DNA from: a virus
Length of the DNA: 30,265 nucleotides
Virus record (IMG/VR): IMGVR_UViG_3300030202_003271
Location: 1 to 30,265 of that record
Direction: 5' to 3' (one strand)
The translations under genes were made by a program, and so were the position numbers. Every line of letters begins with the position of its first letter. Positions within the stretch are counted from its first letter, which is position 1. Below are positions 420-29,391 of the stretch, piece after piece. The notes beneath the pieces were generated by a model, which was not told the DNA's origin, did not search any database, and was given only the letters and a program-made list of their open reading frames with translations.

Positions 420-754
420 TGATTAATCAACAAAAAAAGAATAAGCTTAAAACTCCAGGATATTTTATTAAACGATTAAAAGATAACGATTTTGTTACTC
501 TTAGAATATTTGATAAATATAATGAAAGCGACCCAAGAAAATGGACAGTATTAGTAGATCCTAAAGGCTCTTCTGTGTTCATTACTTGTTTTGAGAATAC
601 ACCATTTAAAGATGAATATTTGTTTCAGTTTAATGATGGTAATCAATTATTTAAAAACAGTTTTAGTTTAAAGACTGATTCAATTGAGGTTGTAGTACAA
701 AAATTACTTAAGAGTGGTGTAAGGCAGAAGAATGAAAGTAAATTTATTGAATAA
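419..754 (+). CDS. Hypothetical protein, 111 aa
   Basis: I do not recognise this protein. It is lysine-rich and looks like a small soluble alpha/beta protein. It has a basic N-terminus (INQQKKNKLKTPGYFIKRL), then strand-like segments (KWTVLVDPKG, SVFITCFEN, EYLFQFNDG), then an amphipathic helix near the C-terminus. No signal peptide or membrane segment is seen. Its ATG overlaps the stop of the preceding clamp-like gene (TAATG), so translation is probably coupled, and a replication-associated role is possible only by position. T4 has rpbA after gene 45, but I see no convincing resemblance. The TAA stop lies inside a late-promoter-like box for the next gene. Confidence 0.75.
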   Translation: MINQQKKNKLKTPGYFIKRLKDNDFVTLRIFDKYNESDPRKWTVLVDPKGSSVFITCFENTPFKDEYLFQFNDGNQLFKNSFSLKTDSIEVVVQKLLKSGVRQKNESKFIE

Positions 755-757
755 ATA
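750..757 (+). promoter_or_regulatory. Late-promoter-like box AATAAATA
   Basis: AATAAATA differs at one base from the T4 late box TATAAATA and lies 5 nt before the ATG at 763. Its internal TAA (752-754) is the stop codon of the preceding gene. It is part of a window-wide series with constant spacing. Confidence 0.55.
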
Positions 758-762
758 AAAAT

Positions 763-1071
763 ATGGATGAAGAAGATCATAACTCTCCGGAGGACGAAGA
801 GCTTAGAGAAATGATCGAACGCGCTTTGAAAGATAATTTAAATGATCGTAAAAAGTTTAAAAAGCGAAAAGACCTAGCTAATCGGTTGGCTAATATATTG
901 ACTGAATATTTGGATAGCTACATTCTTCTTGGTTATGATTTTTCCGGTAGACATTTAGATATTAAAGCTGCCTCTACACCACAGCAGCAAGAGGCTTTAA
1001 ATTCTTTCTTAATGAAATACTTTGCAAGTGAAATGCAATCTATAAAAGGTGGTACAGATGAGTTACTCTAA
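763..1071 (+). CDS. Hypothetical acidic protein, 102 aa, with clamp-peptide-like C-terminus
   Basis: I do not recognise this family. The first 20 residues are strongly acidic (MDEEDHNSPEDEELREM). A basic helical stretch follows (DRKKFKKRKDLANRLANIL), then an alpha-helical C-terminal half. The protein ends TDELL. T4 late co-activator gp33 (about 112 aa) and sigma factor gp55 both bind the sliding clamp through a short hydrophobic/acidic peptide at the extreme C-terminus (gp33 ends LDFLL). The size, acidity and ending are compatible with a clamp-binding factor, but this is speculation. A late-type box lies 5 nt upstream of the ATG. The end overlaps the start of the next gene by 14 nt. Confidence 0.72.
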   Translation: MDEEDHNSPEDEELREMIERALKDNLNDRKKFKKRKDLANRLANILTEYLDSYILLGYDFSGRHLDIKAASTPQQQEALNSFLMKYFASEMQSIKGGTDELL

Positions 1072-1372
1072 AAAACAAATTTACGCTGTTGAAACAGGAG
1101 ACTATGTTGGTCAAATGTTCGCAGTAGTTGAAGTAGATAAAGACCATATAGGTTGTCTATCATTACCAGAAATGGAAAATATTAAAGTACCTAAGGAATC
1201 GTTTGATTCCGGAAGGAACAATGATATACTATCATTAGTAGAAGAGCTACCTAAAGATGTTTTTAAGGTAGTAGAAACTCAATATTTTAAAAATGAAAAC
1301 TCTGATAATAGACGGGAACAACTTAATACACCGAACGTATTATACAGCAAAGAATCAGGCGAAGAAGAGTGA
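1058..1372 (+). CDS. Hypothetical protein, 104 aa, overlapping FEN nuclease gene
   Basis: I do not recognise this protein. The N-terminal part looks like a small beta barrel (QIYAVETGDYVGQMFAVVEV, then HIGCLSLP). A helical stretch follows, and then a polar, probably disordered tail ending SGEEE. I chose ATG 1058 rather than GTG 1049 because it gives the ordinary start MSYSKKQ. The start lies inside the end of the previous gene (14-nt overlap). The last 80 nt, coding for the disordered tail, also encode the first 26 residues of the nuclease in another frame. This overlap is unusually long for the window and may explain the low complexity of the tail. Confidence 0.72.
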   Translation: MSYSKKQIYAVETGDYVGQMFAVVEVDKDHIGCLSLPEMENIKVPKESFDSGRNNDILSLVEELPKDVFKVVETQYFKNENSDNRREQLNTPNVLYSKESGEEE

Positions 1373-2177
1373 AGATCACTCTCAAGAAAAGATTAACAAC
1401 CTTCACATATACTTTACGCTTAACGCGGTGAGCTCCTACGTGAAGCAGTTTTTACCTGATAATACTATATTTGTATGGGATGAGAAGCCTATTTATAGAA
1501 CCAATATACGCAAGGAGATGCTTAAGGAGTATAAAGGTAATAGATCTAAAGATAATTCACCTCATCAAAATAATGAAGTAATTAAATCAATACTTAAGAC
1601 TATGGGCATTAATTCTATATTCCCTAGTCAGTTAGAAGCAGATGATGTAGTAGCGTACATATGTAGAGAGAAGGAAGGTTCTAAGGTAATTATCTCAGTA
1701 GATAGAGACTTTCTACAACTAGTAAGTAAAGAGTGTACTTTGTATGATCCCATAAGAAAGAGATATTTCGATTATGCTTCTTTTGAAAAGGAAACAGGAT
1801 TTAAAACTGTTGAAGAATGGTATACTGCTAAATGTTTAACTGGTGATAAGTCTGATAATGTACCAGGTATACCTCGCTTCGGTCCTGCAGCAGTTAAAAA
1901 ATACCTAAATGATCCTAGTTATCTTTTAGATGAATCGCAGCAAGCTATCTTTAAACGTAATGCAGATATTTTTTGTTTAGATAAGTATGAATCATTACCT
2001 GAGGAAAAGCAGTACTATAAAGAGCAGCTAGAAGTTAAGATAGATACATGCTATAAATCATTTCTTAAATATTGCAAAGATTATTCCTTTGAAAGAATTT
2101 TATCAAAGAAAGAAAATTGGTATAATTTGTTTTTTATGGAAAGCCTGTATAATAAACTAAATGATATCGCTTCCTGA
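1293..2177 (+). CDS. rnh: 5'-3' exonuclease / flap endonuclease (T4 RNase H, T5 FEN type)
   Basis: A 294-aa FEN-family nuclease, close in length to T4 RNase H (305 aa) and T5 FEN (291 aa). This family removes RNA primers and 5' flaps during lagging-strand synthesis. The PIN-like active site is readable in order: LIIDGNN with D7, VWDEKP with D63, basic residues R73, K81 and R84 in the arch region, LEADD with E115, D117 and D118, and SVDRD with D137 and D139. The H3TH DNA-binding motif GDKSDNVPGIPRFGP spans 184-198. The start is fixed by the LIIDGNN strand, which must be N-terminal, even though this overlaps the upstream gene by 80 nt. No Shine-Dalgarno is visible. The end overlaps the primase start by 17 nt, consistent with a primer synthesis and removal operon. 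Confidence 0.93.
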   Translation: MKTLIIDGNNLIHRTYYTAKNQAKKSEDHSQEKINNLHIYFTLNAVSSYVKQFLPDNTIFVWDEKPIYRTNIRKEMLKEYKGNRSKDNSPHQNNEVIKSILKTMGINSIFPSQLEADDVVAYICREKEGSKVIISVDRDFLQLVSKECTLYDPIRKRYFDYASFEKETGFKTVEEWYTAKCLTGDKSDNVPGIPRFGPAAVKKYLNDPSYLLDESQQAIFKRNADIFCLDKYESLPEEKQYYKEQLEVKIDTCYKSFLKYCKDYSFERILSKKENWYNLFFMESLYNKLNDIAS

Positions 2178-3219
2178 AGATTTTGTTATACTTAAGTTTT
2201 ACGAGTTAGGTTTTTATCCTAAGTATAATAAATTTAATAACGTATATCAATGCAGCTGTCCTATATGCAGAGAAGGTAACTCGCTAGGTAAGAAGAGAAG
2301 ATGTTATTATATTCCTAAAAATGAGAATATATTTTGTCATAACTGCGGTTGGTCAGGTAAACCGTTAAGATGGATTAAAGAAGTATCTAACTGTTCTGAT
2401 ACTGCAGTAATAAACGAACTAAAAGAGTATGTACCAGATGCGAATGATTTACCTATTAATAAAGAACAAGCTCGACCAACTATTCAAGTCGAGACCTTAC
2501 CTAAAGATAGTATTAATCTGTCTGATAAGTTTCAACTTGACTATTATAATAGCAACTCTGTTATTACGGCTGTTAGATACCTTATTAAAGAACGTAGATT
2601 AGATACTGCAGTTAATAAACCGGATAACCTCTATACATCTTTAACTGATAGAGTTCATAAAAATAGATTAGTCATTCCGTTTGTAAACGAAAATAAAGAG
2701 ATAGAGTTTTATCAAACTCGTACGGTTTTAAATAAAGATAATAAAACTAAACCTAAGTACTTAGGTAAAGTACAAGCCGAAAAAACGCTATTCAATATAG
2801 ATAGAGTATCTAGTGATCATGATAAGGTTTATATTTTTGAGGGACCGCTAAATGCGTTCTTTACTAAAAACTCTATAGCAGTAGCAGGTATTACCGAACG
2901 AGGTAGATCGTTTACACAAAGACAAGAACAGCAACTCAACTCTCTTAAATGGTATGATAAGGTGTGGATACTCGACTCTCAGTGGGTTGATCAAGCGTCT
3001 TTAGTAAAGTCTGAAGTATTATTAAAACAACGTGAGAAGGTGTTTATATGGCCCGAAAAGTTTGGTAAACGTTTTAAAGATTTTAACGATATAGCTATGG
3101 CATGTAAGATAGATGAAATTAAATGGGAATTTATAGAAAAAAATACCTTCGAAGGACTCGAAGGTATTGTTAAGTTATCAGAGATTAAAAAGTATAGAAA
3201 TTTAATTAAACATACTTAA
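2161..3219 (+). CDS. 61: DNA primase with zinc finger and TOPRIM domain (T4 gp61-like)
   Basis: A 352-aa primase-like protein, close to T4 gp61 (342 aa). It would synthesise RNA primers together with a replicative helicase. The N-terminal zinc finger is readable: C33-x2-C36 ... C59-x2-C62, within CSCPIC and FCHNCGWSG, as in the CHC2/DnaG class. The TOPRIM signature is VYIFEGPLNA, with E227 and G228, followed by VWILDSQ with D272; the usual DxD is here D-S-Q. An RNA-polymerase-like segment with RLVIPFVNENKEIEFYQTR precedes TOPRIM. The start overlaps the nuclease gene by 17 nt in another frame. The 3' end carries, on the opposite strand, a strong terminator hairpin serving the convergent gene. 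The last 14 nt overlap that gene's end. Confidence 0.9.
   Translation: MISLPEDFVILKFYELGFYPKYNKFNNVYQCSCPICREGNSLGKKRRCYYIPKNENIFCHNCGWSGKPLRWIKEVSNCSDTAVINELKEYVPDANDLPINKEQARPTIQVETLPKDSINLSDKFQLDYYNSNSVITAVRYLIKERRLDTAVNKPDNLYTSLTDRVHKNRLVIPFVNENKEIEFYQTRTVLNKDNKTKPKYLGKVQAEKTLFNIDRVSSDHDKVYIFEGPLNAFFTKNSIAVAGITERGRSFTQRQEQQLNSLKWYDKVWILDSQWVDQASLVKSEVLLKQREKVFIWPEKFGKRFKDFNDIAMACKIDEIKWEFIEKNTFEGLEGIVKLSEIKKYRNLIKHT
3137..3168 (-). terminator. Intrinsic terminator for the leftward gene, inside primase CDS
   Basis: A perfect 11-bp inverted repeat (AATACCTTCGA at 3142-3152, TCGAAGGTATT at 3158-3168) has a 5-nt loop. On the - strand it runs directly into seven T (3143-3137, partly shared with the stem base). 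It lies 38 nt beyond the stop of the leftward gene at 3206. On the + strand it has no T-tract, so it should act only on leftward transcripts. It is encoded within primase codons for NTFEGLEGI. Confidence 0.8.
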
Positions 3220-3640
3220 ACTGAGAGTTACCAGTCTGAGCTAAATAACCTTTAAATGACTCTGTTACTCCAGCTAACTCAGTAGCAACTCTAGCAAGTT
3301 TTCTCTGCTCTGAAGCTTTCATTCTATCAAAGATAGTATCAGGTTCTGCATTAGCTAACTGCTGCTGAATAGATTCAGCTTCTTCACCATTAAGGTAATC
3401 TAAAAAGTCTTCCATTCTACCTATCCAACCTCTAAGCTGCTCCTTCATAGCTTCATTACGTTCATTTACTGCTTGTGCTGCTTTAACATTAGGATCTTCA
3501 TCCACCACAGTATCATCCACTTCTACATCAACATCAAATTCACCTGGATCAGTGTTATCTTCTAGCTCAGCTTCAAATGCTTCTCTTTCGTCATTTTGCT
3601 CGTGCAGATTCTTAAAAAAACGTCTCTCAAATTTAGTCAT
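3206..3640 (-). CDS. Hypothetical acidic protein, 144 aa
   Basis: I do not recognise this protein. I chose ATG 3640 (MTKFERRFFKN), which has a late-type box 5 nt upstream; in-frame extension would read through that promoter. The N-terminal third becomes very acidic (EAELEDNTD, VDVEVDDTVVDEDP). The rest is predicted mostly helical with charged amphipathic stretches (VNERNEAMKEQLRGWIGRMEDFL; MKASEQRKLARVATEL). It has no membrane segment. It is the only leftward gene among rightward genes here, with its own late-type promoter and its own terminator, so it is a monocistronic late unit. Acidic helical proteins of this size include T4 prohead core proteins, but that link is only a possibility. Confidence 0.78.
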   Translation of the reverse strand: MTKFERRFFKNLHEQNDEREAFEAELEDNTDPGEFDVDVEVDDTVVDEDPNVKAAQAVNERNEAMKEQLRGWIGRMEDFLDYLNGEEAESIQQQLANAEPDTIFDRMKASEQRKLARVATELAGVTESFKGYLAQTGNSQFKYV

Positions 3641-3645
3641 AAAAA

Positions 3646-3653
3646 TATTTATT
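3646..3653 (-). promoter_or_regulatory. Late-promoter-like box AATAAATA
   Basis: Read leftward, AATAAATA lies 5 nt before the ATG at 3640. It is back-to-back with a rightward box at 3660-3667, so the 32-bp intergenic gap holds two divergent promoters. Confidence 0.6.
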
Positions 3654-3659
3654 CTCAAG

Positions 3660-3667
3660 CATAAATA
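3660..3667 (+). promoter_or_regulatory. Late-promoter-like box CATAAATA
   Basis: CATAAATA lies 5 nt before the ATG at 3673. It is the divergent partner of the leftward box at 3646-3653. Confidence 0.6.
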
Positions 3668-3672
3668 AATAC

Positions 3673-4029: not shown

Positions 4030-4475
4030 CTTTCTTGAGATCGATAATTATTACAGTATTAGTAGCTCTTGGATTTGCTTTTGGTTTTAAAAATGTATTA
4101 GGTTTTTGGGAAACTTTTGCATTAGCTGTAGTTTTTCAATTTTTAGCTGCTTTTTTATATAGTTCAAATAAAATTAGTAAAGTAAAGGAACTTACTAATG
4201 ATTTTCAAAATGAGCTGGATCAATTATTAAGCTTAAGTGAAGCAAAAATAGATTGTCCTTGTGGTAATTATACGTATACTACTAACTTATTTCTAAATGT
4301 AGACGAGACGTTTAAGTGTGAAAAATGTGGTAATGAATTTAGAATTGATTTCTCTGCTACTCCAACATTATTAACACAGCCTGTATATACTCAAAGTGAA
4401 GTGGACTTAAAGGAAGGTAAAAACGACGATGAAATTAGATTTACTTCTGATTACAAGCAAGGAAAGGAACTATAA
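4026..4475 (+). CDS. Membrane protein with two TM helices and a zinc ribbon, 149 aa
   Basis: Two hydrophobic segments at about residues 5-21 (SIIITVLVALGFAFGF) and 27-46 (FWETFALAVVFQFLAAFLY) form a short hairpin in the inner membrane. A helical linker follows (KISKVKELTNDFQNELDQLLSL). After that comes a probable zinc ribbon with C77-P-C79-G and C98-x2-C101-G, each knuckle followed by beta-strand residues. A polar C-terminal tail ends the protein. Charge distribution suggests the zinc ribbon faces the cytoplasm. The function is unknown; a membrane-anchored metal-binding protein could act in host takeover or assembly. Translation starts within the end of the upstream gene (ATGA overlap). Confidence 0.8.
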   Translation: MTFLRSIIITVLVALGFAFGFKNVLGFWETFALAVVFQFLAAFLYSSNKISKVKELTNDFQNELDQLLSLSEAKIDCPCGNYTYTTNLFLNVDETFKCEKCGNEFRIDFSATPTLLTQPVYTQSEVDLKEGKNDDEIRFTSDYKQGKEL

Positions 4476-4483
4476 TATAATTA
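4464..4483 (+). promoter_or_regulatory. TATAAT-type promoter cassette, copy 1
   Basis: The 20-bp sequence AAGGAACTATAATATAATTA is repeated exactly at 29082-29101, also just upstream of a + strand gene. TATAAT at 4471-4476 fits a sigma70 -10 element. No clear -35 is seen. The ATG at 4488 would be about 5 nt from the expected transcription start. Confidence 0.5.
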
Positions 4484-4487
4484 TATT

Positions 4488-4798
4488 ATGGATAAAAAGT
4501 ATAAGTTCGACTTAAAAAGTAATACTACAGAAAATTTGAAGAAAATAAAAGAAGATTCTTATGTTATGGATAAGAAGTTTACTTTTGATTTGAAAGATGG
4601 TACTACTAAAACTATGGAGTTTGAAGAATTTGTACGGTGGTGTTGTTTAATTGAAGCTGTTCAAGTAGTAGACAATCAACAAGATGTAAATACTACCAAC
4701 GATAAGTGGATCAAGCCTTTAGCCTTTCAAAAATATATTGATGAAAGATTTCATTCAATGAAGCATGATCTTAAGGTTGAAGTAGTTATGGGTAACGT

Positions 4799-4802
<4 letters not shown>
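4488..4802 (+). CDS. Hypothetical protein, 104 aa, with duplicated N-terminus
   Basis: I do not recognise this protein. Residues 1-14 (MDKKYKFDLKSNTT) and 27-40 (MDKKFTFDLKDGTT) are a diverged direct duplication. The second copy contains an in-frame ATG at 4566 that would give a 78-aa protein. The remainder is acidic to neutral and helical (EFEEFVRWCCLIEAVQVV) and ends in a basic segment and VVMGNV. The 4488 start is preferred because the TATAAT cassette lies just upstream. The last 4 nt overlap the end of the convergent 1240-aa gene. A small regulatory or accessory role is possible, with no direct evidence. Confidence 0.72.
4729..4759 (-). terminator. Possible terminator at the end of the leftward virion operon
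   Basis: Read leftward there is an imperfect inverted repeat (arms 4749-4759 and 4737-4746, one bulge, very short loop) followed by AT then five T at 4733-4729. It lies about 40 nt beyond the stop at 4799, inside the convergent gene, like the stronger hairpin at 3137-3168. The stem is AT-rich, so it is only a candidate. Confidence 0.28.
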
Positions 4803-8520
<3,718 letters not shown>

Positions 8521-8521
<1 letters not shown>

Positions 8522-9381: not shown

Positions 9382-9387
9382 CAATTA

Positions 9388-9395
9388 TATTTAAT
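9388..9395 (-). promoter_or_regulatory. Late-promoter-like box ATTAAATA
   Basis: Read leftward, ATTAAATA lies 6 nt before ATG 9381, between the stop of the 70-aa gene and the lectin-like gene. Confidence 0.5.
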
Positions 9396-9398
9396 TAC

Positions 9399-9611
9399 TC
9401 AACCCCTTATGAAAGTACAGGTATAAGAATTAGTTAAGTTAAGCTTTGTTTTAAAAACTAAATAATAACCCATTTTTAAAAGTTCTTTATTTAGAATATT
9501 CATATAATCTTCGTGTATGTTTACAAGTATACTTTCAGTATCCTCATCAAAAAGAACATAGTCAGAGAACTCTTCACATAAAGAACTTCCTTTCCATACA
9601 CTTGCTTCCAT
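9399..9611 (-). CDS. Hypothetical small protein, 70 aa
   Basis: I do not recognise this protein. It is acidic in the first two thirds (SLCEEFSDYVLFDEDTESILV), then helical (NIHEDYMNILNKELLKMGYYLVF), with a final beta-like segment ending TCTFIRG. It has no membrane segment. The start ATG 9611 has a late-type box 5 nt upstream, whose TAA is the stop of the 54-aa gene before it. It sits between tail-fibre genes and the lectin-like gene. Small proteins in such positions are often fibre-assembly helpers or minor tail parts, but nothing here proves that. Confidence 0.68.
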   Translation of the reverse strand: MEASVWKGSSLCEEFSDYVLFDEDTESILVNIHEDYMNILNKELLKMGYYLVFKTKLNLTNSYTCTFIRG

Positions 9612-9616
9612 TTAAT

Positions 9617-9624
9617 TATTTATT
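9617..9624 (-). promoter_or_regulatory. Late-promoter-like box AATAAATA
   Basis: Read leftward, AATAAATA lies 5 nt before ATG 9611. Its TAA is the stop codon of the 54-aa gene (9620-9622). Confidence 0.58.
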
Positions 9625-9784: not shown

Positions 9785-9816
9785 ATTTTAGTTATATAGA
9801 AAAAACATAAAAGCAA

Positions 9817-11520: not shown

Positions 11521-11525
11521 ATTAT

Positions 11526-11533
11526 TATTTAAT
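11526..11533 (-). promoter_or_regulatory. Late-promoter-like box ATTAAATA
   Basis: Read leftward, ATTAAATA lies 5 nt before ATG 11520. Its TAA (11531-11529) is the stop of the 501-aa fibre gene. Confidence 0.52.
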
Positions 11534-14183: not shown

Positions 14184-14191
14184 TATTTATT
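14184..14191 (-). promoter_or_regulatory. Late-promoter-like box AATAAATA
   Basis: Read leftward, AATAAATA lies 5 nt before ATG 14178, in the gap after the 786-aa fibre gene. Confidence 0.6.
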
Positions 14192-16573: not shown

Positions 16574-16581
16574 TATTTAAT
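16574..16581 (-). promoter_or_regulatory. Late-promoter-like box ATTAAATA
   Basis: Read leftward, ATTAAATA lies 5 nt before ATG 16568. Its TAA is the stop codon of the 729-aa gene (16579-16577). Confidence 0.52.
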
Positions 16582-18766: not shown

Positions 18767-21102
18767 TTGTAGTCAATAAAATTTATATCGTTTATAACAG
18801 CAGTTTTAGGTAACGAGCTTTTAATATTACTTAACATTACATCTCTTACTTCGTCTGCTACATTAGTACTAATATTTAAATTCTTAATATTAATATCAAT
18901 AATATTACTCTTATTTTTAAGATTAGTATTAATTGAATTAAGAAGATTAATTTTATCAGTCAAGTTTCTCATTCCACAAGGTAACGAAATTGATAAATCC
19001 TGAATATTATCGATATTAGTACCAAAAATGTATCCCAATTCTTGATATTTTTCCAAAGGTTTTAAGGTTAAGTAAAGATTATTAATAAACAATTTATTAG
19101 TAGCGTCATTAAATAGGATTTCTCTTTTATTATTAGACGACTTTAAAAATATATCGCCAAATAAAATCTTCTTAGTAAATATTTGATACGCGTTAATATT
19201 AAATGAAAATATTACATTAGTATTTAAATATAAATTACAGATACCTTCTATAGCGTTAAAAGATAGGAAAATATTATTTTTTTCAAATTTATCTAAATTA
19301 AAGATAGTTATAAACGTGTTTTTATCTAAACGATCTTCAATTGATACTCCTTCAGTGCTGTTATCAAATATTTTAAATTGAAAAAGCACTTCGTCGCCAG
19401 TTTTAGTAAAGCTAAACCCTCCATTAATATCATTACTTTCAGAATATAATGTAAAATCACCAGCTTCATTTTGATAAGTAAAGCCCAAGCTAAACCCACC
19501 ATTTTCATTAATTGAGTTAAAGTAATTATTCACTCTATTATTAATACGAGCAGTTTTACAGAAATTAGTAGGTGACTCTCTTAAAAAGTCGTTTCTTGAA
19601 ACTCTAACATATTTGTATCTTTTTTGTGGTTCAAAAGTTAAATCACTCTTTTTATCAAAATATATTTTTTTCTTAACTGAATCTTTTAAAGTGGAATTAT
19701 TTTTTATTAACTTTTCTACACTTTTTTCATAAGTTATATTAAAAATAGGTGATGCAGCTAAAGCAGTTTCTTTAGTAGTATAATCAGGATAATAATATCT
19801 ATCAACCCATATTCCTTCTTGACCTATACCACCTGATAACCAAGTACATAAATACGTTACATCCTCATCTACTGTGGAATCGTCGTCTAATTTATAAACT
19901 CTATCAGATAAATCAGGTCTCTTAAATGAAAACGACCCACATTTAGTAAATTTAGTATCATTAATGTTTAATTTATTGAATGGCGCCATCGATGACGGAG
20001 TAGTAAAAAATGTTGTACCAGGTTTTATCTTTATATCAAAGTTATCGTATACAAAGTTTAAAGACAAGGTTTCATTTCGTTCACTATCTACGTCAGATAA
20101 AATAGAAGTATATCTTCTTAAATTTTGACTGAATATTGTAGTATCTGAAGTAGATAGAAGATTATTTGAAGAGGTAAACTCTTCTTGTGTATTAACTATA
20201 TTTTTTAAATTAATAAAATTAAAATCTAATTTATTATTATTCGATGAACTATAAAGCAAATAATTAGATGGTAGATGAAAATCACTCTTATCATTGTTAA
20301 TAGTTCCTTTATTAGTATACGTAACAAAACTTGTATTATAAGGTGACGGTATATTTAAATTAACTTCTTGATTAAGCCTGATAGAATTACTACTCACAAA
20401 AAATTGATTAGGTTTTGATGTATCATCAATTAGTTTTGCAACAAGATTTCCTCCTAAACCTATAATAGAGTATTTTCCATCTGTCTTTTGAGAAAATAAA
20501 TTTATATAACTTTCGCTTTTGTATTTTAAGAGATTATATTCTAAATTTCTACCAGAAGAAGAAATTTTATTTTCTGATACAAATAGTATATTTCTGTTAT
20601 TTTCAATATCTCTTGCATCATCACTAACTACTAAAAAATATCTAATATTATCAACTACTGTACTAACTCTACAAATAAAATCATCAATAAAGATTATTTC
20701 AAAATCACTAGCAAATTCTATATTAGTTGTGAAAGAAGTTTTACCATAAAATTGCGAATTGTCTATATCATTACTCGTTTTAAAAGCGCTTAACGAAGCA
20801 TTGTCGAATATTAAAAAATTACTACTTGAGGTAGTAAAGTTTAAAGTTGTAAAAAATGAACCAGGTTTAACTCTTACCTCTTTTACTGATGCTACGTCAT
20901 CTAATAGATACTCATTAGTAAGATAAAAATTAGTGAAATTTAAGTTTTTGAAATCTTGAATCCCCGATAAAGCAGATATAAAATTTAATGAAAATCCACC
21001 ATTATACGTCTGCCTATATTGATCTAATGTTAGATCAGCAGGGCAACAACCAGCTTCTACAGAGCTTAAAGCACTTAAACTTGATTTTAACAAACAACCC
21101 AT
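18763..21102 (-). CDS. Virion structural protein with lectin-like C-terminal domain, 779 aa
   Basis: No family is recognised for the whole protein. The N-terminus is Cys-containing (MGCLLKSSLSALSSVEAGCC), but it lacks a hydrophobic signal core, so it is not a convincing lipoprotein signal. The middle is long, Asn/Ser/Asp-rich and beta-strand-like. From about residue 510 a region resembles a LamG/concanavalin-type jelly roll: NGGFSLGFTY, NGGFSFTKTGDEVLFQFKIF, TFITIFNLDKF and GICNLYLNTNVIFSFN. The final about 70 residues are helical with NLKNKSNIIDINIKNLNIS. The location between baseplate and fibre genes suggests a baseplate-periphery or fibre-connector role. A late-type box lies 6 nt upstream of its ATG, and the end overlaps the 729-aa gene by 4 nt. 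Confidence 0.74.
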   Translation of the reverse strand: MGCLLKSSLSALSSVEAGCCPADLTLDQYRQTYNGGFSLNFISALSGIQDFKNLNFTNFYLTNEYLLDDVASVKEVRVKPGSFFTTLNFTTSSSNFLIFDNASLSAFKTSNDIDNSQFYGKTSFTTNIEFASDFEIIFIDDFICRVSTVVDNIRYFLVVSDDARDIENNRNILFVSENKISSSGRNLEYNLLKYKSESYINLFSQKTDGKYSIIGLGGNLVAKLIDDTSKPNQFFVSSNSIRLNQEVNLNIPSPYNTSFVTYTNKGTINNDKSDFHLPSNYLLYSSSNNNKLDFNFINLKNIVNTQEEFTSSNNLLSTSDTTIFSQNLRRYTSILSDVDSERNETLSLNFVYDNFDIKIKPGTTFFTTPSSMAPFNKLNINDTKFTKCGSFSFKRPDLSDRVYKLDDDSTVDEDVTYLCTWLSGGIGQEGIWVDRYYYPDYTTKETALAASPIFNITYEKSVEKLIKNNSTLKDSVKKKIYFDKKSDLTFEPQKRYKYVRVSRNDFLRESPTNFCKTARINNRVNNYFNSINENGGFSLGFTYQNEAGDFTLYSESNDINGGFSFTKTGDEVLFQFKIFDNSTEGVSIEDRLDKNTFITIFNLDKFEKNNIFLSFNAIEGICNLYLNTNVIFSFNINAYQIFTKKILFGDIFLKSSNNKREILFNDATNKLFINNLYLTLKPLEKYQELGYIFGTNIDNIQDLSISLPCGMRNLTDKINLLNSINTNLKNKSNIIDINIKNLNISTNVADEVRDVMLSNIKSSLPKTAVINDINFIDYK

Positions 21103-21108
21103 TTTATA

Positions 21109-21116
21109 TATTTATT
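21109..21116 (-). promoter_or_regulatory. Late-promoter-like box AATAAATA
   Basis: Read leftward, AATAAATA lies 6 nt before ATG 21102. Its TAA is the stop codon of the 180-aa gene (21114-21112). Confidence 0.6.
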
Positions 21117-21654: not shown

Positions 21655-24515
21655 AGAATTAAAGCTGCTGAGGAAAGAGGTAGTTTAGAGGTTGATAAAG
21701 TAGGTACTGAAGAGGATAGAGTGAAGAAGGCATTACTTAAATCAGCTTCACCATTTGCAGTAAAGCTATCAGTAAATCTACTATTATTACTACTAAAAGT
21801 TGAACTGTGTAAAAAGTTTACACTATCTTTATACTCAAAAAGATAATTTACCAATAACGGTCCTTTATTAAGATCTTTAATTAAAAATGCTAAATTAAAT
21901 TGCTCGTTATCACTATTATAGGTTAATATAGGTTTACCGCTTTCTATATAAACAGAATCAAATGAAGATAAATTAAACATACAATTATTAGCATTATTTC
22001 CTGTAGTAGGAAATATTTGTTCCGTTTTATCTTCTATGTAACTATATTTAAATATTGAAGGGTATAATCTTATATTCTTAAATGTAAGCTGTTCTTTTTG
22101 AACTCTGCAATAATAAACATTACTTCCAACCTTAAGTCTATTACTTACTTTATCAAAGAAATTAGTATTAATATTTAAAGTACTAGTAAAGGTATTAGGA
22201 GTAACAAATTTATTATCTTTATAAGATGTTTTTTCTGTAACCAAAAACGAACTAGTTTCGATAAACAAAGTATCATATAATATATCAAAATCTACTACTT
22301 TGTTTGATAACTCATGACAGATAGTGGTGTTATATTTACCAGAAAGATAATCTAAAGTTTGAGTTAATTCTTTTACTGCTGGCGCAGCCGACTTTTCGTT
22401 AATATTTTTAATGTAAATTTTACCTACATGATTTTTTCTATCAAAGGTAGATTCCGGAGATGTATCTATAGTAGAAAAATCAGTAACGTTAGTGGAATCA
22501 ACTGTATCGTTATATAAAAATCCTTCATCTGTTTGGGTATAATTAAAAATAATATTATCAGTAAATTTTGAACCATCGTAGTTTTTTACTCCGTTATCCC
22601 CTGATAATCTAACATTATAAGTAAAATCACCTGAAAGACCTTTATAGAGAGATATACCAGGCTTGTATACAGTATCAGGCCCAGTATCATCACTTAAAGC
22701 TCTTACTACTGTCGTGCCTCCGTCATAATAACCTATACCTGCTTCAACTAACTCAGAAAAATAGAACTGATCTGCGCTTTCACTAAACGCGCTTAAACCT
22801 GATTTAATAGGATCAGCTAAAGCTTCAGTATCAGAAAATCTAAAATATGCTCCTTCTTTTACGTCGGCATCAAAAGTAATTGATTCAGGTCTCGTATAAT
22901 CAACTTCAAGATAATTAGAAGGTTGAATTAATTCTTGATACGGAGCAAAAAATCTACCAAATATAAAGTAAGAAGATAACGGTAAATCTGGAGACTGGTC
23001 ACCAGGAGCATTAAATCCGTTAGTAAATCCTGATATACCAGATCTTATAGTTTCCGAAAATGTAGCACTATCAGTTATATCATAGTCAAATTGATATCCT
23101 TCACTATATAAATCATCAAAAAATACATAACCATTTAAAACTAAATTTTTAATATGATTAGGTACTTCAAATTTTAAGTTACTTCTATAATAATTATTAT
23201 CTTTAACTAACCCGAAAATATTACCAAAAATATCTTTCTTACTATCATCTATATACCCCTCATTATACAGATAAGATAAATCAGTATTTAAATTTCTTTC
23301 TTTTTTAATTTCAGAAGAATATCCTAAAAAAGATGTACTTCCTTTATCTAGATTAGGTTGATTTATAGCTATACCTTTACTTCTATTATTAATAGAACTT
23401 GAAGTATCTACTATAAAAGTTAAAATAGAATCATTATTAGTATATAAATTAGGATCAGGAAATATATAAAATTGATTAGGTTTGTATTCTGATCTTTTAA
23501 AAAAATCTATTCTTTTGCCTTGTATAGTAGCTATAGCTGTATTGCTAGGTTTAAAGAAACCTAAATCCCTTTCACTTATTACTTGATTAGAAAAATTAGA
23601 AGCAGTAGAAGGGTAATTTTGATTTAGAAAATTAGCATAAGGTTTTTCTGATTTAAATAGAATTCCTATATCTGAATTACCATTACTATCAGTAGATAAA
23701 AAGTAAAAATCTGAACCTATAAATTTTTCTGTCTGTTTCTTTTTAGAGCTTAAAACTTGATCTAACTCTTTCAAATTTAACAATTCACTATCAACAGAAG
23801 AGAAAAGCTGATTAATTAAATCACTTTCAAGATCTTTAAATAAATTACTTCCCTTAGATACAACCCCAGGCTCATACTCTTTATAGTTAGCACCATATTC
23901 TTTAGCATCAGGATCTCTATTAAAATATTGAGCAAAATTATCATAATACTCTGTTAATGATACAGAAAGATTAGTTTTAATATCTTCTATGTTATAATCA
24001 ATATTGCTTGTATCCCTATTCTCTAAGAAGTCTATAATTAAATCCTTAGAAGCTTGCTCAACACCTATACTACTTCCTTTAACTTTACTTTTAGTAAGGG
24101 AGTAATGCAAATTATTTCTCTTTTTCTTATAGTATGATATAATATTTCTAATTTTTTTACTGAAAAACGACATGGCAATTTGCATATCATACTTGTCAGT
24201 AAAATCTAATTGAGTTAAAAACTTCTTTTCAGCATTAGAAGAAAAGTTTAACGTTATATCTTTTAAGAAATCTCTGTACCTATCTAAAATTAAATCTTGA
24301 TTACTTACCCCAAGTGTCGTGTTTCTAGTATTCCATTCATTAAGATAATTATTATAGAAAGCTGTTAAAGTTTCAGGCTTATAACTCTCACTTACCGTTT
24401 CAATGAATTGCAAAAACGAGTATGGAGTAAATTTATCTAATGCCTCGTCACTATTTACATTAGAATTAGTTATAGATTGGTTTACATTTGGAAACCCTGT
24501 AGTAATGTTATCCAT
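21651..24515 (-). CDS. Large baseplate/virion protein, 954 aa
   Basis: No firm family. Residues 1-210 are predominantly helical with aromatic-rich segments (FLQFIETVSESYKPETLTAFYNN, ILDRYRDFLKDITLNF, YDMQIAMSFFSKKIRNIISYYKKKRNNL). The remainder is beta-rich with many Ser/Asn/Asp loops and a possible propeller-like stretch near 730-800 (VVDFDILYDTLFIETSSFLV). Being the second gene after gp25-gp6, it occupies the position where T4-like genomes carry wedge proteins gp7/gp8, and the size suits a large wedge component. I could not confirm homology from sequence reading. A GATAAATA box lies 6 nt before ATG. The end overlaps the 180-aa PKD gene. Confidence 0.75.
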   Translation of the reverse strand: MDNITTGFPNVNQSITNSNVNSDEALDKFTPYSFLQFIETVSESYKPETLTAFYNNYLNEWNTRNTTLGVSNQDLILDRYRDFLKDITLNFSSNAEKKFLTQLDFTDKYDMQIAMSFFSKKIRNIISYYKKKRNNLHYSLTKSKVKGSSIGVEQASKDLIIDFLENRDTSNIDYNIEDIKTNLSVSLTEYYDNFAQYFNRDPDAKEYGANYKEYEPGVVSKGSNLFKDLESDLINQLFSSVDSELLNLKELDQVLSSKKKQTEKFIGSDFYFLSTDSNGNSDIGILFKSEKPYANFLNQNYPSTASNFSNQVISERDLGFFKPSNTAIATIQGKRIDFFKRSEYKPNQFYIFPDPNLYTNNDSILTFIVDTSSSINNRSKGIAINQPNLDKGSTSFLGYSSEIKKERNLNTDLSYLYNEGYIDDSKKDIFGNIFGLVKDNNYYRSNLKFEVPNHIKNLVLNGYVFFDDLYSEGYQFDYDITDSATFSETIRSGISGFTNGFNAPGDQSPDLPLSSYFIFGRFFAPYQELIQPSNYLEVDYTRPESITFDADVKEGAYFRFSDTEALADPIKSGLSAFSESADQFYFSELVEAGIGYYDGGTTVVRALSDDTGPDTVYKPGISLYKGLSGDFTYNVRLSGDNGVKNYDGSKFTDNIIFNYTQTDEGFLYNDTVDSTNVTDFSTIDTSPESTFDRKNHVGKIYIKNINEKSAAPAVKELTQTLDYLSGKYNTTICHELSNKVVDFDILYDTLFIETSSFLVTEKTSYKDNKFVTPNTFTSTLNINTNFFDKVSNRLKVGSNVYYCRVQKEQLTFKNIRLYPSIFKYSYIEDKTEQIFPTTGNNANNCMFNLSSFDSVYIESGKPILTYNSDNEQFNLAFLIKDLNKGPLLVNYLFEYKDSVNFLHSSTFSSNNSRFTDSFTANGEADLSNAFFTLSSSVPTLSTSKLPLSSAALIL

Positions 24516-24521
24516 TAAACA

Positions 24522-24529
24522 TATTTATC
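24522..24529 (-). promoter_or_regulatory. Late-promoter-like box GATAAATA
   Basis: Read leftward, GATAAATA lies 6 nt before ATG 24515, just after the stop of the 732-aa gene. Confidence 0.58.
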
Positions 24530-24530
24530 C

Positions 24531-26729
24531 TTAAAATAGGGATAGACTACTAAATAAGGAGTTTCGAATGCTAATATCAAAGATATTATCTTCTCCTTCT
24601 AAACTACTCAACGGTTCATTAAAGCCTACTGTAGTTAGCCCATTATCATAATCTATTAATCCGCTAAATATAGTATTATCTGTAACAGCAGATAAGGAAT
24701 AAAATTCATAAAAGGTATTAACTGTATCTATATTATATAAAGTAGGTAAAATTAATCCCCATCCCCAGTTATCACCTCCACTTAAAGATGCATTAAATGA
24801 TTGATTACTATAATCACTCAGCATGTATGTATTAGTATTCTTAGCTCCTCCACCTGTATTGTGACCACTTAAAGCACTTAAAGGCTGGAAGGTATTTAAA
24901 CGTAAATATGTATTACTATACTTTTCGTAAGCTACAAGATCACTTCCTGCTGAAACTTCATATGTTAAGGAACTTATTTCCGGTCCTAGATTCTTACCAT
25001 GAATAACTTTAGTTGTAGTACCCATTGGATCAAAATTTTCTTCAAATTTATTTTTACTACCTCTAAATTTATTATAGCTTAAACTTAATGTATCTATAAA
25101 TCTTTTGACTTGCTCAGGTTGTTGGGCTAATGCTCTATCAAATACTATTCCATTATCGTTAGTTAAAGAAGCTAAACTTATTAATGAACTAATATCACAC
25201 ATATCAATATCTGTATTATTTGATACAAAGTTAAATACTCTTTCATATAATTTTTTACCCAGTAAATCATATCTGCTGCTTACATTACCAAAAATAGTAC
25301 CAATAAAGTCATCAAAAAAGATATTTTTATCTAGTAAGATTTCTTGAAATCTCATATCTTTTATATTTTGTTCAAAGTCAAAATTTTCGTTGTGCTTATA
25401 AAAATTATAAAAATCTTTAGGATAAGCAGTTAGAGTTACTAAACCATTTACTGTAGAAAGTAGAGAACTACTAGTATTAAACGCATATTGATTTCTCGCG
25501 CTAAGTGTTAATCTTGTAGCTGAAGCAGAAAGATTATCGTTAAATGTAAGAGCTCCTCTAAACCAGAAATTAGTATCTAATGATGATAAAGTACTAGCTA
25601 AATTAGATATAGTATAGTAAGAGGACTGAACAACATTATCATTGTTAAATAAGTTACTAGTAGCCCCCGATAATACTACAAAAGTAGGATTACCAGCTGA
25701 TAAAGCTTTCATAGTAAAATTATCATTACTAACAGGTGTAATAACAAAGGGTATATCTAAACCTTTATATTGTGTTTTACTAATCGAAAAGGTTTCTCGT
25801 TCAACACCTTCTCCGTTAATACCATTAGAGCTAAATTTTATGGCGCTTAAGGTCTGTCCAGAGGTTGGACTTATAAATGAAGATAAAGTAATATCTAAAT
25901 TATTAGCGTAATTATTATTTTTATAGCCCTTTAAAGTATTAGAAAAAATATTTTCTCTATTTTTGAAAAAGGATATATTTATTGGAGATGTTTGATCATC
26001 TGCTTTTACATATATTTCTTTTGAACCAGAGCTTCCTACATATACACTTGATAAACTTGTACTTAAACCTGGAACTAAAGCACCGTCAGTAGTTAGTCTA
26101 GCATATAGATCTACTGACGAAAGTGATATTTTATCAATCTCTACAAATTCAAAACTAGAGAGGGTTGGTAGATAGTTTTTTTCGTAAATTGAAAAATATT
26201 TTTCTAAACTGTTAAATTTATTTTTCGTTAAATTAAAGTAATTTTTATATTCACTACCGGAAACACTATAATATAAATCTTGAAAATCTTGATAAAATGG
26301 AGTTTGTGAAGTTACTGTAATAGGACCAGATATTTCACCTGCTGATAAAACTAAAGCTGGCTTGGAAGCAGCTATGTCTCCCGGTGGCATACTAAGAGAG
26401 AAGGTATTTGTAATATAATCTTTAATATGAACTGAATCACTATACGAGGCTAAAATAGAGTTATTTTTACAATCACGTATAACCATTCTTACTATATACT
26501 CACCAGGATATTGATATATATGAGTACTACTAATATTATTACCAAAAGTACCATCTCCAAAATCAAAAGTAACCTTTTGATCGTTTAAAGGAATTTCCCT
26601 ACTATCATCTTCAGGTATTCTAGCTTTAAAAGTAAGAGGAGTTATATCCAGATTATAAGATGAGAGTTTTGCTTCTCCTTTATAATCTATGACATCAAAA
26701 ATAGCATAGTCTGTTTTAATATTACTCAT
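24531..26729 (-). CDS. Baseplate-region protein with N-terminal PKD domain, 732 aa
   Basis: A PKD-type beta sandwich occupies about residues 25-105, with KVTFDFGDGTF (52-62), then STHIYQYPGEYIVRMVIRD (68-86), a textbook 'GDG ... H-x-Y-x-x-PGEY-V' pattern. The middle (110-430) is Ser/Leu-rich beta structure. Around 430-590 it becomes helical (FDFEQNIKDMRFQEILLDKNIFFDDFIGTIF, LLGKKLYERVFNFVSNNTDIDMCD, QPEQVKRFIDTLSLSYNKF). Its start overlaps the gp6 stop by 8 nt, so it is translated with the wedge genes. It probably takes the place of T4 gp7 or another wedge protein; this is inferred from gene order. No late box is present, as expected for a coupled gene. Confidence 0.8.
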   Translation of the reverse strand: MSNIKTDYAIFDVIDYKGEAKLSSYNLDITPLTFKARIPEDDSREIPLNDQKVTFDFGDGTFGNNISSTHIYQYPGEYIVRMVIRDCKNNSILASYSDSVHIKDYITNTFSLSMPPGDIAASKPALVLSAGEISGPITVTSQTPFYQDFQDLYYSVSGSEYKNYFNLTKNKFNSLEKYFSIYEKNYLPTLSSFEFVEIDKISLSSVDLYARLTTDGALVPGLSTSLSSVYVGSSGSKEIYVKADDQTSPINISFFKNRENIFSNTLKGYKNNNYANNLDITLSSFISPTSGQTLSAIKFSSNGINGEGVERETFSISKTQYKGLDIPFVITPVSNDNFTMKALSAGNPTFVVLSGATSNLFNNDNVVQSSYYTISNLASTLSSLDTNFWFRGALTFNDNLSASATRLTLSARNQYAFNTSSSLLSTVNGLVTLTAYPKDFYNFYKHNENFDFEQNIKDMRFQEILLDKNIFFDDFIGTIFGNVSSRYDLLGKKLYERVFNFVSNNTDIDMCDISSLISLASLTNDNGIVFDRALAQQPEQVKRFIDTLSLSYNKFRGSKNKFEENFDPMGTTTKVIHGKNLGPEISSLTYEVSAGSDLVAYEKYSNTYLRLNTFQPLSALSGHNTGGGAKNTNTYMLSDYSNQSFNASLSGGDNWGWGLILPTLYNIDTVNTFYEFYSLSAVTDNTIFSGLIDYDNGLTTVGFNEPLSSLEGEDNIFDISIRNSLFSSLSLF

Positions 26730-28560
26730 CTACAACTTTAATTCTATTCGTTAATGAAAGAGGTGAATATAAGTATGGAAATTTAAAATACGGTAAAGTA
26801 GTATCTTGATTTACTAAAGATATATCACTAGTCTCGTATATAGGATTAAAAGATAGAAATGAAACAGTGTCTATACTGGCTCCAGTTAATTCGTTCTTAG
26901 TATAGATACGTTTAACTCCTTCTAATGATAAAATGTCATTAGTTAATTTATTAAAACTTAAATTTTGACCTAACTTATTATTAGAGGGATCAAAAAATGA
27001 CCTTATCAAAGCAGCAGTTCTTTCACTTAAAGTATCTTTATTAATTTTATTATTAATTTCCCTTACTACATACAGTAATGTATTATCTAGTAAATTTAAA
27101 TCTAAGTTAGATGAATTTGTAAAGCCTAGTCCATACGCCATATAAATAGGGTCTCTAGGTACAACAGTATTAGAAACCATTTTTCTTTCTTTACAAGTAT
27201 CAACTATTAAATTTTTAAAGGATTCAGATAGATACGGAGGGAAAAATTTATCTTCAGTTACTTTAAAATTAGGAGTGCAAAATATGTTAATATTATTAAA
27301 ATCACATGAGTCAGCAAAATTAATTTGATTAATTAAAACTCTATTTACCTTATTAGGATCAACACATATATCGTAAAAGTATTGAATGTACTCATTTATG
27401 TACGAGTCGTTATCTACCACGGATATACTATTAATCACATTAGCTAGATTTTTTTCCAAAAATGCCTTATAATCATCTTCATTAACTAATCTTAATTGAG
27501 ATGAAAAAGATTTAGGCGCATTTTTTCTAATTTCATCTACTGTTTCTTCTTCTGATAATGAAGTAGAGTTTTGAGGGTTATTAACAGTTAGTAAGGAACT
27601 ATTAGCTACATTAATAAATGTTGTTTCATCTTTATTAGCAAACGTATCATTAAAAATTTGTCTTTGTCTTAATGAATCATAATTAAATAATTTATTACCA
27701 TTAATAACATTTTTACTAATTATGCCTTCAGTATTATCTGATAAAATATAATTTACTGAAACTACATCTCCTGCATTTAATTTTTTACCAAATACCCCAC
27801 TTCCAAATTTAATTTCATAAAAACCATTTTCGTTTAAGCGCTTCTCATAAACTCTATCTGTTGAATCAGTTAAATATAAACTATCTACTTCTTTATACAA
27901 ATAGTAAGTATTATCGTTAGCTTCCTTAACGTAAACATCAATAGTATTATCTGCTATAAATTTTTCATCCCTACTATCTACTACATTTTTTACTACTATA
28001 GGAAGTAATTCAAATTCTTCTCCTTGAGCGTTATAATCCGGATACTCTTTTATTGAGCCTTGATAAAGTATTACCGAATCATTTAAACTTTTTAATACTT
28101 CACTTCCGGCAACAGTTTTGTTAAAAGAATAATCATCAATAAAATTGTATTGAATACCATCTGCTAAAAAATACGAATTCTTCTTAATTGTATAGCTTCC
28201 TATAAGCATATCAGCTGATCCTACAGCGTTAATTGGTACTATAGAAGTTTGTTTACCAGCAGGTTTATAACCTATTAGCTTAACAATCTTATTCATATTT
28301 TCATAAATAGATGCTTGATCAAAATTAACTTCTGCAGCATTTTGATTTAAATAGAATAGTAAGACGTGATAAGAGTAAGCTATGATATCTATAACTGCTG
28401 CTAAGTTACTTCCATCATAATTTTGATCTGTAAACTTTTCATTCGTGTTTAATCTGTTTACTATATAATCTTTTAAACTTACAGCATCAAATGCCACATA
28501 AGCATTTTGCGGTAAGCTAAAATCTAAAAATTCATTGTCGTTGTTATTAGGAGTAGCCAT
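26722..28560 (-). CDS. 6: Baseplate wedge protein gp6 (J-like)
   Basis: A 612-aa protein near T4 gp6 size (660 aa). The N-terminus has the family pattern AFDAVSLKDYIVNRLN, FTDQNYDGSNLAAVIDIIAYS, LLFYLNQNAAEVNFDQA and NMNKIVKLIGYKPAGKQTS. The centre holds the J-like beta domain (KRLNENGFYEIKFGSGVFGKKL, GDVVSVNYILSDNTEG). The C-terminal part includes EETVDEIRKNAPKSFSSQLRLVNEDDY, the conserved J/gp6 segment before the swivel domain. gp6 dimers link wedges into the inner baseplate ring and trigger sheath contraction together with gp25 and gp7. It starts 2 nt after the gp25 stop, so it is coupled to gp25. The adjacency gp25-gp6 is a hallmark of contractile systems. Confidence 0.93.
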   Translation of the reverse strand: MATPNNNDNEFLDFSLPQNAYVAFDAVSLKDYIVNRLNTNEKFTDQNYDGSNLAAVIDIIAYSYHVLLFYLNQNAAEVNFDQASIYENMNKIVKLIGYKPAGKQTSIVPINAVGSADMLIGSYTIKKNSYFLADGIQYNFIDDYSFNKTVAGSEVLKSLNDSVILYQGSIKEYPDYNAQGEEFELLPIVVKNVVDSRDEKFIADNTIDVYVKEANDNTYYLYKEVDSLYLTDSTDRVYEKRLNENGFYEIKFGSGVFGKKLNAGDVVSVNYILSDNTEGIISKNVINGNKLFNYDSLRQRQIFNDTFANKDETTFINVANSSLLTVNNPQNSTSLSEEETVDEIRKNAPKSFSSQLRLVNEDDYKAFLEKNLANVINSISVVDNDSYINEYIQYFYDICVDPNKVNRVLINQINFADSCDFNNINIFCTPNFKVTEDKFFPPYLSESFKNLIVDTCKERKMVSNTVVPRDPIYMAYGLGFTNSSNLDLNLLDNTLLYVVREINNKINKDTLSERTAALIRSFFDPSNNKLGQNLSFNKLTNDILSLEGVKRIYTKNELTGASIDTVSFLSFNPIYETSDISLVNQDTTLPYFKFPYLYSPLSLTNRIKVVDE

Positions 28561-28562
28561 AA

Positions 28563-29051
28563 TTAAAATATAATATATCCGTTGTTATTTAATGACGACC
28601 TTATAGATATACCATATACATCTAGGGAAGGAATATCGATTTGCATGTTTATTCTATATTCATTTTGATCCGTATTAGGAATAACTACTACATTATTAAC
28701 AGTTATCCTTGGCTCCATTTCAGGTAATCTATTTCTTATATCGTCTCTTATTGAAAAAGCGCTGAAGTCCGAAATAGGTTCAAATAAATACCGTCTTAAA
28801 TCTAATCCAAACTCTGGACTTAATATCTTTTGCCCTGGAGTTGTTAAGAATATATTAGTAATACTATTTCGTATAGCATTTTCATCAAATACGCCTTGTA
28901 TGTCTTTTAATACAGAGTTCTTGTTTAATTGTTTATTATAGTAGACAGATGTCTTTAAATCTAAAAATAAATCCTTAAAAAGATACCCTTGATTAAGTGA
29001 AGCACTATCAAGTTTAGTAGTTGAAATATCTGTTAATTTGATCAAGGCCAT
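28563..29051 (-). CDS. 25: Baseplate wedge protein gp25 (TssE-like)
   Basis: A 162-aa member of the gp25/TssE family, a little longer than T4 gp25 (132 aa) because of an N-terminal extension. Conserved segments are RNSITNIFLTTPGQKILSPE (61-80), FGLDLRRYLFEP (81-92), then IRDDIRNRLPEMEPRI with the diagnostic E113-P114-R115, and a closing strand EYRINMQIDIP. gp25 sits in the inner baseplate, stabilises the wedge and nucleates sheath assembly. It heads the long leftward virion operon and is preceded by a box variant ATTAAATA. The 53-bp gap upstream is a divergent promoter region toward the + strand gene at 29105. Confidence 0.95.
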   Translation of the reverse strand: MALIKLTDISTTKLDSASLNQGYLFKDLFLDLKTSVYYNKQLNKNSVLKDIQGVFDENAIRNSITNIFLTTPGQKILSPEFGLDLRRYLFEPISDFSAFSIRDDIRNRLPEMEPRITVNNVVVIPNTDQNEYRINMQIDIPSLDVYGISIRSSLNNNGYIIF

Positions 29052-29057
29052 TTATTA

Positions 29058-29065
29058 TATTTAAT
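29058..29065 (-). promoter_or_regulatory. Late-promoter-like box ATTAAATA
   Basis: Read leftward, ATTAAATA lies 6 nt before ATG 29051 (gp25) and probably drives the baseplate wedge unit. Confidence 0.52.
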
Positions 29066-29081
29066 GTAGCATATTCATATT

Positions 29082-29101
29082 AAGGAACTATAATATAATT
29101 A
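29082..29101 (+). promoter_or_regulatory. TATAAT-type promoter cassette, copy 2
   Basis: An exact copy of the 20-bp cassette at 4464-4483. TATAAT at 29089-29094 would start transcription about 4 nt before ATG 29105. No -35 match is obvious. It is divergent from the gp25 late box. Confidence 0.5.
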
Positions 29102-29104
29102 GAT

Positions 29105-29368
29105 ATGAAGATTACTGGAAAACTTATTACTGAAGTCGAAGTTGATCATAAAGATCTAGCTAAAGCTCTTAAACGTGCTATTTTTGTAGAGCTTGATCTA
29201 CCTCGATATAATAAAGTACATCACGACGGTATATCTTTTATTGAAACTGTTGATGCTCATACTTCTCATAGGTTTGAATATGAAAGACCTGTAAAGCTCG
29301 CATGTAAAGATGATATTGAAGTGTTTGAAGCGTATAATACTATAAAAGAATTTTTATATAACGTGTGA
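29105..29368 (+). CDS. Hypothetical protein, 87 aa
   Basis: I do not recognise this protein. It is small, soluble and probably alpha/beta: an N-terminal strand (MKITGKLITEVEV), a basic helix (HKDLAKALKRAIFVEL), then His-rich middle loops (YNKVHHDGISFIETVDAHTSHRFEY) and a C-terminal helix (DDIEVFEAYNTIKEFLYNV). It has no membrane segment. The promoter cassette immediately upstream is shared only with the gene at 4488, which suggests the two are expressed at the same, probably non-late, stage. The function is unknown. Confidence 0.75.
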   Translation: MKITGKLITEVEVDHKDLAKALKRAIFVELDLPRYNKVHHDGISFIETVDAHTSHRFEYERPVKLACKDDIEVFEAYNTIKEFLYNV

Positions 29369-29383
29369 TTCTTTGCAAGTTGG

Positions 29384-29391
29384 CATAAATA
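29384..29391 (+). promoter_or_regulatory. Late-promoter-like box CATAAATA
   Basis: CATAAATA lies 5 nt before ATG 29397. Its constant spacing is the main reason for choosing that start. Confidence 0.6.

Follow-up and report, generated by a model that had tools for sequence, protein, structure and literature searches.

The window (the whole 30,265-nt stretch analysed, from IMG/VR record IMGVR_UViG_3300030202_003271) is a 30-kb piece of a T4-like phage with 32% G+C, in which genes are tightly packed and gaps of 8–17 nt are common. Its left side carries the C-terminal part of a gp45-like sliding clamp together with a 5'-3' exonuclease and a primase, its middle holds tail-fibre-like genes, and its right side contains gp6, gp25 and a fragment of a clamp loader (Table 1). 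The named phages nearest to its gp6 are cyanophages, at about 25–28% identity. No gp55 gene was found within these 30 kb, which represent a partial genome. The minus-strand gene at 4799–8521 encodes a 1240-aa protein whose C-terminal half contains long Thr-Asp/Thr-Gly dipeptide repeats and which has no PHROG match.

Table 1. Genes and promoter-like elements of the window; positions are those of the whole stretch.
Feature	Position	Strand	Remarks
gp45-like sliding clamp, C-terminal part	3..419	+	PHROG 223, E 5.5e-7
Late-type box AATAAATA	750..757	+	5 nt to ATG 763
Late-type box AATAAATA	3646..3653	-	5 nt to ATG 3640; divergent from box 3660..3667
Late-type box CATAAATA	3660..3667	+	5 nt to ATG 3673
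AGGAAC-N5-TATAAT, second promoter class	4465..4481	+	6 nt to ATG 4488
Late-type box ATTAAATA	9388..9395	-	6 nt to ATG 9381
Late-type box AATAAATA	9617..9624	-	5 nt to ATG 9611
Late-type box ATTAAATA	11526..11533	-	5 nt to ATG 11520, tail fibre-like gene
Late-type box AATAAATA	14184..14191	-	5 nt to ATG 14178, tail fibre-like gene
Late-type box ATTAAATA	16574..16581	-	5 nt to ATG 16568, tail fibre-like gene
Late-type box AATAAATA	21109..21116	-	6 nt to ATG 21102
Late-type box GATAAATA	24522..24529	-	6 nt to ATG 24515
gp6-like baseplate wedge gene	26722..28560	-	internal gene; without box at 5–8 nt
gp25-like baseplate wedge gene	28563..29051	-	heads operon gp25-gp6-...
Late-type box ATTAAATA	29058..29065	-	6 nt to ATG 29051, gp25 baseplate wedge
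AGGAAC-N5-TATAAT, second promoter class	29083..29099	+	5 nt to ATG 29105
Late-type box CATAAATA	29384..29391	+	5 nt to ATG 29397

The first-pass annotation had listed 12 starts with a T4-late-type box 5 or 6 nt ahead of the ATG, missing boxes at genes that overlap or abut an upstream gene, and an absence of Shine-Dalgarno sequences. These observations are accurate. The octamer, NATAAATA or ATTAAATA, lies at the reported spacing at 12/12 starts, where shuffled sequence would give about 1.5, and each boxed ATG opens an ORF of 70–954 aa in the mechanical ORF list. ATAAATA-N5/6-ATG occurs eight times in the window (mean of 1.03 in dinucleotide shuffles, 0/100 of which reached eight), and ATTAAATA-N5/6-ATG four times (mean 0.46, with no dinucleotide shuffle reaching four). 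As ATAAATA per se is not enriched (21 occurrences against 32 expected), it is only the placement of the box that is special. Boxes precede 12/15 non-overlapping starts vs 0/10 overlapping or abutting ones (Fisher p = 1e-4), fractions that are approximate, as the gene starts are predictions of a simple gene caller. Strict Shine-Dalgarno cores (GGAG/GAGG) precede 0/25 starts, including 0/12 boxed ones. At 3641–3672, a 32-nt gap is common to two divergent late promoters, whose start codons are no more than 33 nt apart.

At least 80 relatives of the window are present in IMG/VR, with gp6 identities of 62–100% in the best segment. Two of these, G001 (170,908 bp) and G002 (196,877 bp), are close to genome size. 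Between them, these two encode homologues of gp17, gp18, gp20, gp21, gp23, gp25, gp6, gp32, gp41, gp43, gp44, gp46/47, gp55, gp61, uvsX and uvsW. Across 81 mutually related sequences, the numbers of NATAAATA boxes at distances of 0 to 9 nt from an ATG were 5, 6, 3, 10, 1, 94, 102, 1, 3 and 5. Because these sequences are related, distinct orthologous upstream regions were compared, and the spacing proved constant while the spacer sequence varied. For gp25, the box stood at 5–7 nt in 44/44 distinct upstreams with nine different spacers; for the gene starting at 21102, at 5–6 nt in 18/18 distinct relatives; for that at 29397, at 5 nt in 36/37; and for that at 24515, at 6 nt in 27/31, with three more at 9 nt, each with a further ATG 6 nt from the box. 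Three same-strand overlapping internal genes (18766, 21654, 26729) had a box at late spacing in 0/111 distinct upstreams.

The same dependence on operon position held in the near-complete relatives, where boxes precede 45/106 first genes vs 2/75 internal genes in G001 and 38/137 vs 5/91 in G002. In G001, ORF-opening ATGs lie 5–6 nt from 35 boxes, and hardly any lie at 0–4 nt. ATG is the dominant codon at 5–6 nt, but GTG is also found at 5 nt (four cases in G001, seven in G002), so AUG would be preferred without being exclusive, and GUG is a leaderless start codon in some bacteria as well; TTG was not found at 5–6 nt. A strict Shine-Dalgarno core accompanies 0/47 boxed starts in G001 and 1/43 in G002. 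G017 (contig IMGVR_UViG_3300020578_000006) is the most distant relative; its late boxes stand 4 nt from 12 starts, 5 nt from 15 and 6 nt from 10. With a 4-nt spacing so common, either its +1 would be one base nearer or some sites differ. Among 20 contigs with gp23 relatives, 148 matches to the late box were found vs 25 for the reversed pattern. A search of the relatives for the opposite arrangement, in which boxes would stand ahead of internal genes or at random spacings, did not find it. The earlier proposal that the boxes are promoters and not ribosome sites is supported by the operon-first dependence and by the spacing kept in diverged relatives.

In T4, the late octamer spans -13 to -6, roughly a helical turn ahead of +1, and the -35 region shows no conservation (PMC2988020); structures of gp55 are available (PMC7892883). 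The TATAAATA-like octamer of T4 late promoters has its counterpart in NATAAATA/ATTAAATA at the 12 window starts, a likeness that concerns the octamer sequence only. With an octamer at -13 to -6, a 5-nt spacer would put the predicted +1 on the A of the ATG. The boxes precede genes for virion proteins, namely gp18, gp20 and gp21 in the relatives and gp25 and tail fibres in the window. A search for gp55 and gp33 homologues, which the first-pass annotation had suggested, was half successful. Homologues of gp55 (PHROG 234) are encoded by both near-complete relatives (1e-25 in G001, 7e-25 in G002); gp33 (PHROG 254) was found in HTVC008M and Mosig but not in G001, G002 or G017, where divergence may have hidden so small a protein. 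Besides the copy in the window, gp45 was detected in G002 (1.2e-14) and G017 (5.6e-13), and not in G001. Overall, the identification of the boxes as T4-type late promoters is supported, with every prediction that it makes for the sequence borne out.

The layout extends beyond the late class to which the first-pass annotation had confined it. The window's two remaining promoter-bearing starts, 4488 and 29105, have the form AGGAAC-N5-TATAAT-N5/6-ATG, which is conserved in relatives; at 29105, most of 40 distinct relatives have TATAAT 5 or 6 nt from the ATG. This is possibly a middle promoter class served by a putative activator, "middle" being a label that we infer. The element occurs seven times within L091 (20 kb of G002). 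TATAAT also stands 5–8 nt before 17/61 unboxed first genes in G001 and 21/99 in G002, vs 3/73 and 3/86 internal genes, and exactly 6 nt before 21 first genes in G017. These TATAAT-like boxes often carry a TTGA (TTGANN) at a 16-nt spacer (11 cases in G001, 10 in G002; few at other spacings), and the genes with early-type TATAAT in the relatives include gp43, gp32, uvsX and gp55 (6–8 nt to the ATG). The sigma-70 -10 hexamer ends about 6 nt before +1, so a TATAAT at 5–8 nt again predicts a +1 at the ATG. All promoter classes therefore look leaderless from their spacing, although about 40% of G001 first genes match neither class exactly. In G001 and G002, 7% of genes have a strict Shine-Dalgarno core ahead of them.

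The major capsid gene departs from this pattern, which corrects the earlier prediction of leaderless mRNAs for a whole late regulon. In the relatives, gp23 has no box at late spacing and is preceded instead by a conserved leader of about 80 nt, also present across a wider set of gp23 loci (L087:86-198, which is the upstream region in G001; L205; L199-L220). An alignment of 13 sequences predicts two hairpins, GAGG..CCUGA and CUUGGGA..UCCCAUGA, the latter sometimes followed by GGUCGAAA, with 12 predicted pairs of which seven show changes on both sides. A AAAGGAAA-like sequence lies ahead of the gp23 ATG. One locus (L205) was searched against Rfam, without a match, and we consider the leader a candidate new structured RNA.

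Counting genes with a box at 5–6 nt vs 17–45 nt sets the group apart from T4 and the cyanophages. These counts are 34/11 in G001 and 26/7 in G002, 8/6 in HTVC008M, 6/18 in Mosig and 3/18 in Melnitz, and 0/26 in S-SKS1, 1/22 in P-SSM2, 0/15 in Syn9 and 0/24 in T4. At the gene level, no box at leaderless spacing was found in KVP40, in the Sinorhizobium phages phiM12 and phiM9 or in RM378; phiM9 has the best gp17 identity among the matches listed (38.6%). T4 late promoters (gp55/gp33/gp45) share with the group the octamer core ATAAATA before late structural genes as well as gp55 and gp45 homologues. In T4, however, the octamer lies mostly 21–28 nt from the ATG with a Shine-Dalgarno sequence between them (strict cores at 40% of genes), and its first base is T, which in the group it mostly is not. 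The NATAAATA late promoters of cyanophages (P-SSM2, Syn9, S-SKS1) use the same octamer with the first base free but have it at 5–6 nt in 0–1 genes, vs 15–26 at 17–45 nt. At orthologous genes, the box is 30 nt away for P-SSM2 gp25, 31 nt for Syn9 gp20 and 28 nt for T4 gp18 and gp20, against 5–7 nt here.

The first-pass annotation had called the layout unusual for a T4-like phage, which is true with respect to T4 and cyanophages, but cultured pelagimyophages share it in part. In HTVC008M and Mosig, several late genes, including gp25 and csgF, have the box exactly 5 nt before the ATG, and in HTVC008M such boxes match independently annotated CDS starts (7562, 19456, 31132, 49760, 75559, 142360, 16007, 18916). 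Only part of the late regulon is alike, however; strict Shine-Dalgarno cores precede 31–34% of genes in the pelagimyophage isolates, and early TATAAT elements are not at 5–8 nt. Earlier authors found no middle or late promoters in pelagimyophages (PMC7029224), and a SAR11 transcriptome paper covers other pelagiphages, HTVC022P and HTVC027P (PMC12753301). The csgF/csgG-like curli genes and their neighbours (G001 139780-145285, G002 182490-187865) have HTVC008M homologues with 38–49% identity over most of the region.

Trees of gp23, gp17 and gp20 place the window's group on a deep separate branch, apart from HTVC008M, Mosig and Melnitz, and its gp23 is 27% identical to that of HTVC008M. With core genes not closely related to HTVC008M, the group does not appear to belong to the pelagimyophages, and given this separation the leaderless layout probably arose more than once. 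In trees in which RM378 stood for the Far-T4 phages, gp23 groups with it (97/98), but on very long branches that make the grouping unsure; gp17 and gp20 do not resolve the position. Far-T4 phages, whose only isolate is Rhodothermus phage RM378, resemble the group in their long divergent gp23 and deep position; unlike the group, RM378 lacks leaderless-spaced late boxes.

Outside the T4-like phages, the late transcripts of phiKZ may be leaderless, a case that we do not use as evidence because the literature searched held no confirmation of it. In leaderless genes of Actinobacteria and Deinococcus, -10 elements adjoin the ATG. Individual leaderless mRNAs have been described in phages, that of lambda cI being a named example (PMC9031893), and in Sinorhizobium meliloti 171 leaderless transcription start sites have been reported (PMC3616915). 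Cellular leaderless genes likewise place a -10 element one turn ahead of the start codon and lack a Shine-Dalgarno sequence; the group differs in using a viral gp55-type element too and in the large share of operon-first genes involved. In the literature searched, subscription journals excepted, we met no phage reported to base its entire programme on leaderless mRNAs.

Could the box instead be an AT-rich translation-initiation element, Kozak-like or S1-binding as in Bacteroidetes, in mRNAs that start further upstream? A group almost without Shine-Dalgarno sequences needs some other start signal. Flavobacteriales are not known to use Shine-Dalgarno sequences. Published host predictions for Far-T4-like phages fall partly in this order (PMC13037479, PMC7198788). 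We nonetheless regard such an element as unlikely, since it is missing before overlapping genes, which need translation too, and since the box is the known gp55 octamer, found before orthologous late genes of T4 and cyanophages at a distance of 20–40 nt. In addition, the TATAAT of early genes with TTGA at a 16-nt spacer is explained only by a promoter.

Start codons of uncultured phages are predictions, and the box might be a late promoter whose real start codon lies further downstream, on an mRNA with an ordinary leader. We give this very little weight, as the gp18 and gp25 starts are colinear with those of their homologues in other T4-like phages and as there would then be no reason for a fixed 5–6 nt in diverged relatives. 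It is equally improbable that compaction of an AT-rich genome simply pushed promoters against genes and left a 5–6 nt spacing by coincidence, for which the close gene packing and low G+C content might speak. The spacing is the same where upstream gaps are wide (205 nt at 9611, 53 nt at 29051), the distance from box to ATG is sharply bounded, and T4, P-SSM2 and S-SKS1 are AT-rich with 0–1 such sites.

We therefore favour leaderless transcription from promoters at the start codon. In this widespread uncultured T4-like group, nearly every operon-first gene is predicted to be leaderless and the usual ribosome-landing sequence appears to have been given up. A phage gp55 sigma on host RNA polymerase would read the boxes, with transcription beginning on the A of the ATG (5-nt spacer) or 1–2 nt earlier (6–7 nt). 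The resulting late mRNAs would be leaderless, ribosomes would initiate on their 5'-terminal AUG with no Shine-Dalgarno sequence involved, and downstream operon genes would probably be reached through coupling or re-initiation. The same layout would operate at sigma-70-type early (TTGA-N16-TATAAT) and middle-like (AGGAAC-N5-TATAAT) promoters, so that operon-first genes in the group would by default be expressed through leaderless initiation. We infer the transcription starts, the leaderless state of the mRNAs, the mode of translation and the temporal classes from sequence. Taken jointly, gp55-read late promoters, a +1 at or near the ATG, leaderless late mRNAs and a leaderless default for operon-first genes are very probable. 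We also consider it likely, with less confidence, that a whole deep T4-like lineage has leaderless first genes in nearly every operon and in all temporal classes (host sigma-70 early, AGGAAC-dependent middle, gp55 late) while keeping a structured leader for the major capsid gene, that this is convergent with the partial pelagimyophage version, and that it reflects hosts with ribosomes favouring leaderless starts.

When gp6 and an alignment of gp17 were compared with 84,980 species genomes in search of a host, neither had a relative there. An actinobacterial phage was considered and rejected, as the marker WhiB is absent, and a Bacteroidetes-type TAnnTTTG promoter was discarded because it showed no fixed distance to the ATG; the early promoters of the group look like sigma-70 sites of the ordinary kind, unlike those of Bacteroidetes. 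The Flavobacteriales link of Far-T4-like phages (PMC7198788, PMC13037479) may or may not apply to the group here. The phage tRNA-Met of G002 was rejected as an initiator tRNA, having G-C as its first pair and no G-C run in the anticodon stem, and no homologue of the HTVC008M bS21 was detected in G001 or G002. Both near-complete relatives carry a tmRNA (L089:4252-4661 and L090:15777-16193, both on the minus strand; 134 and 133 bits), whose reading frame seems to continue unusually far (>30 codons) beyond the resume codon.

The late transcription of T4, a textbook system, yields messages with leaders and Shine-Dalgarno sequences. If the proposed reading is true, leaderless initiation can sustain the programme of a lytic phage, which may also account for the failure to find late promoters in pelagimyophages (PMC7029224). 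Start codons and operons would further be called better in many viral contigs, and the leaderless layout would itself be a clue to the hosts of the group.
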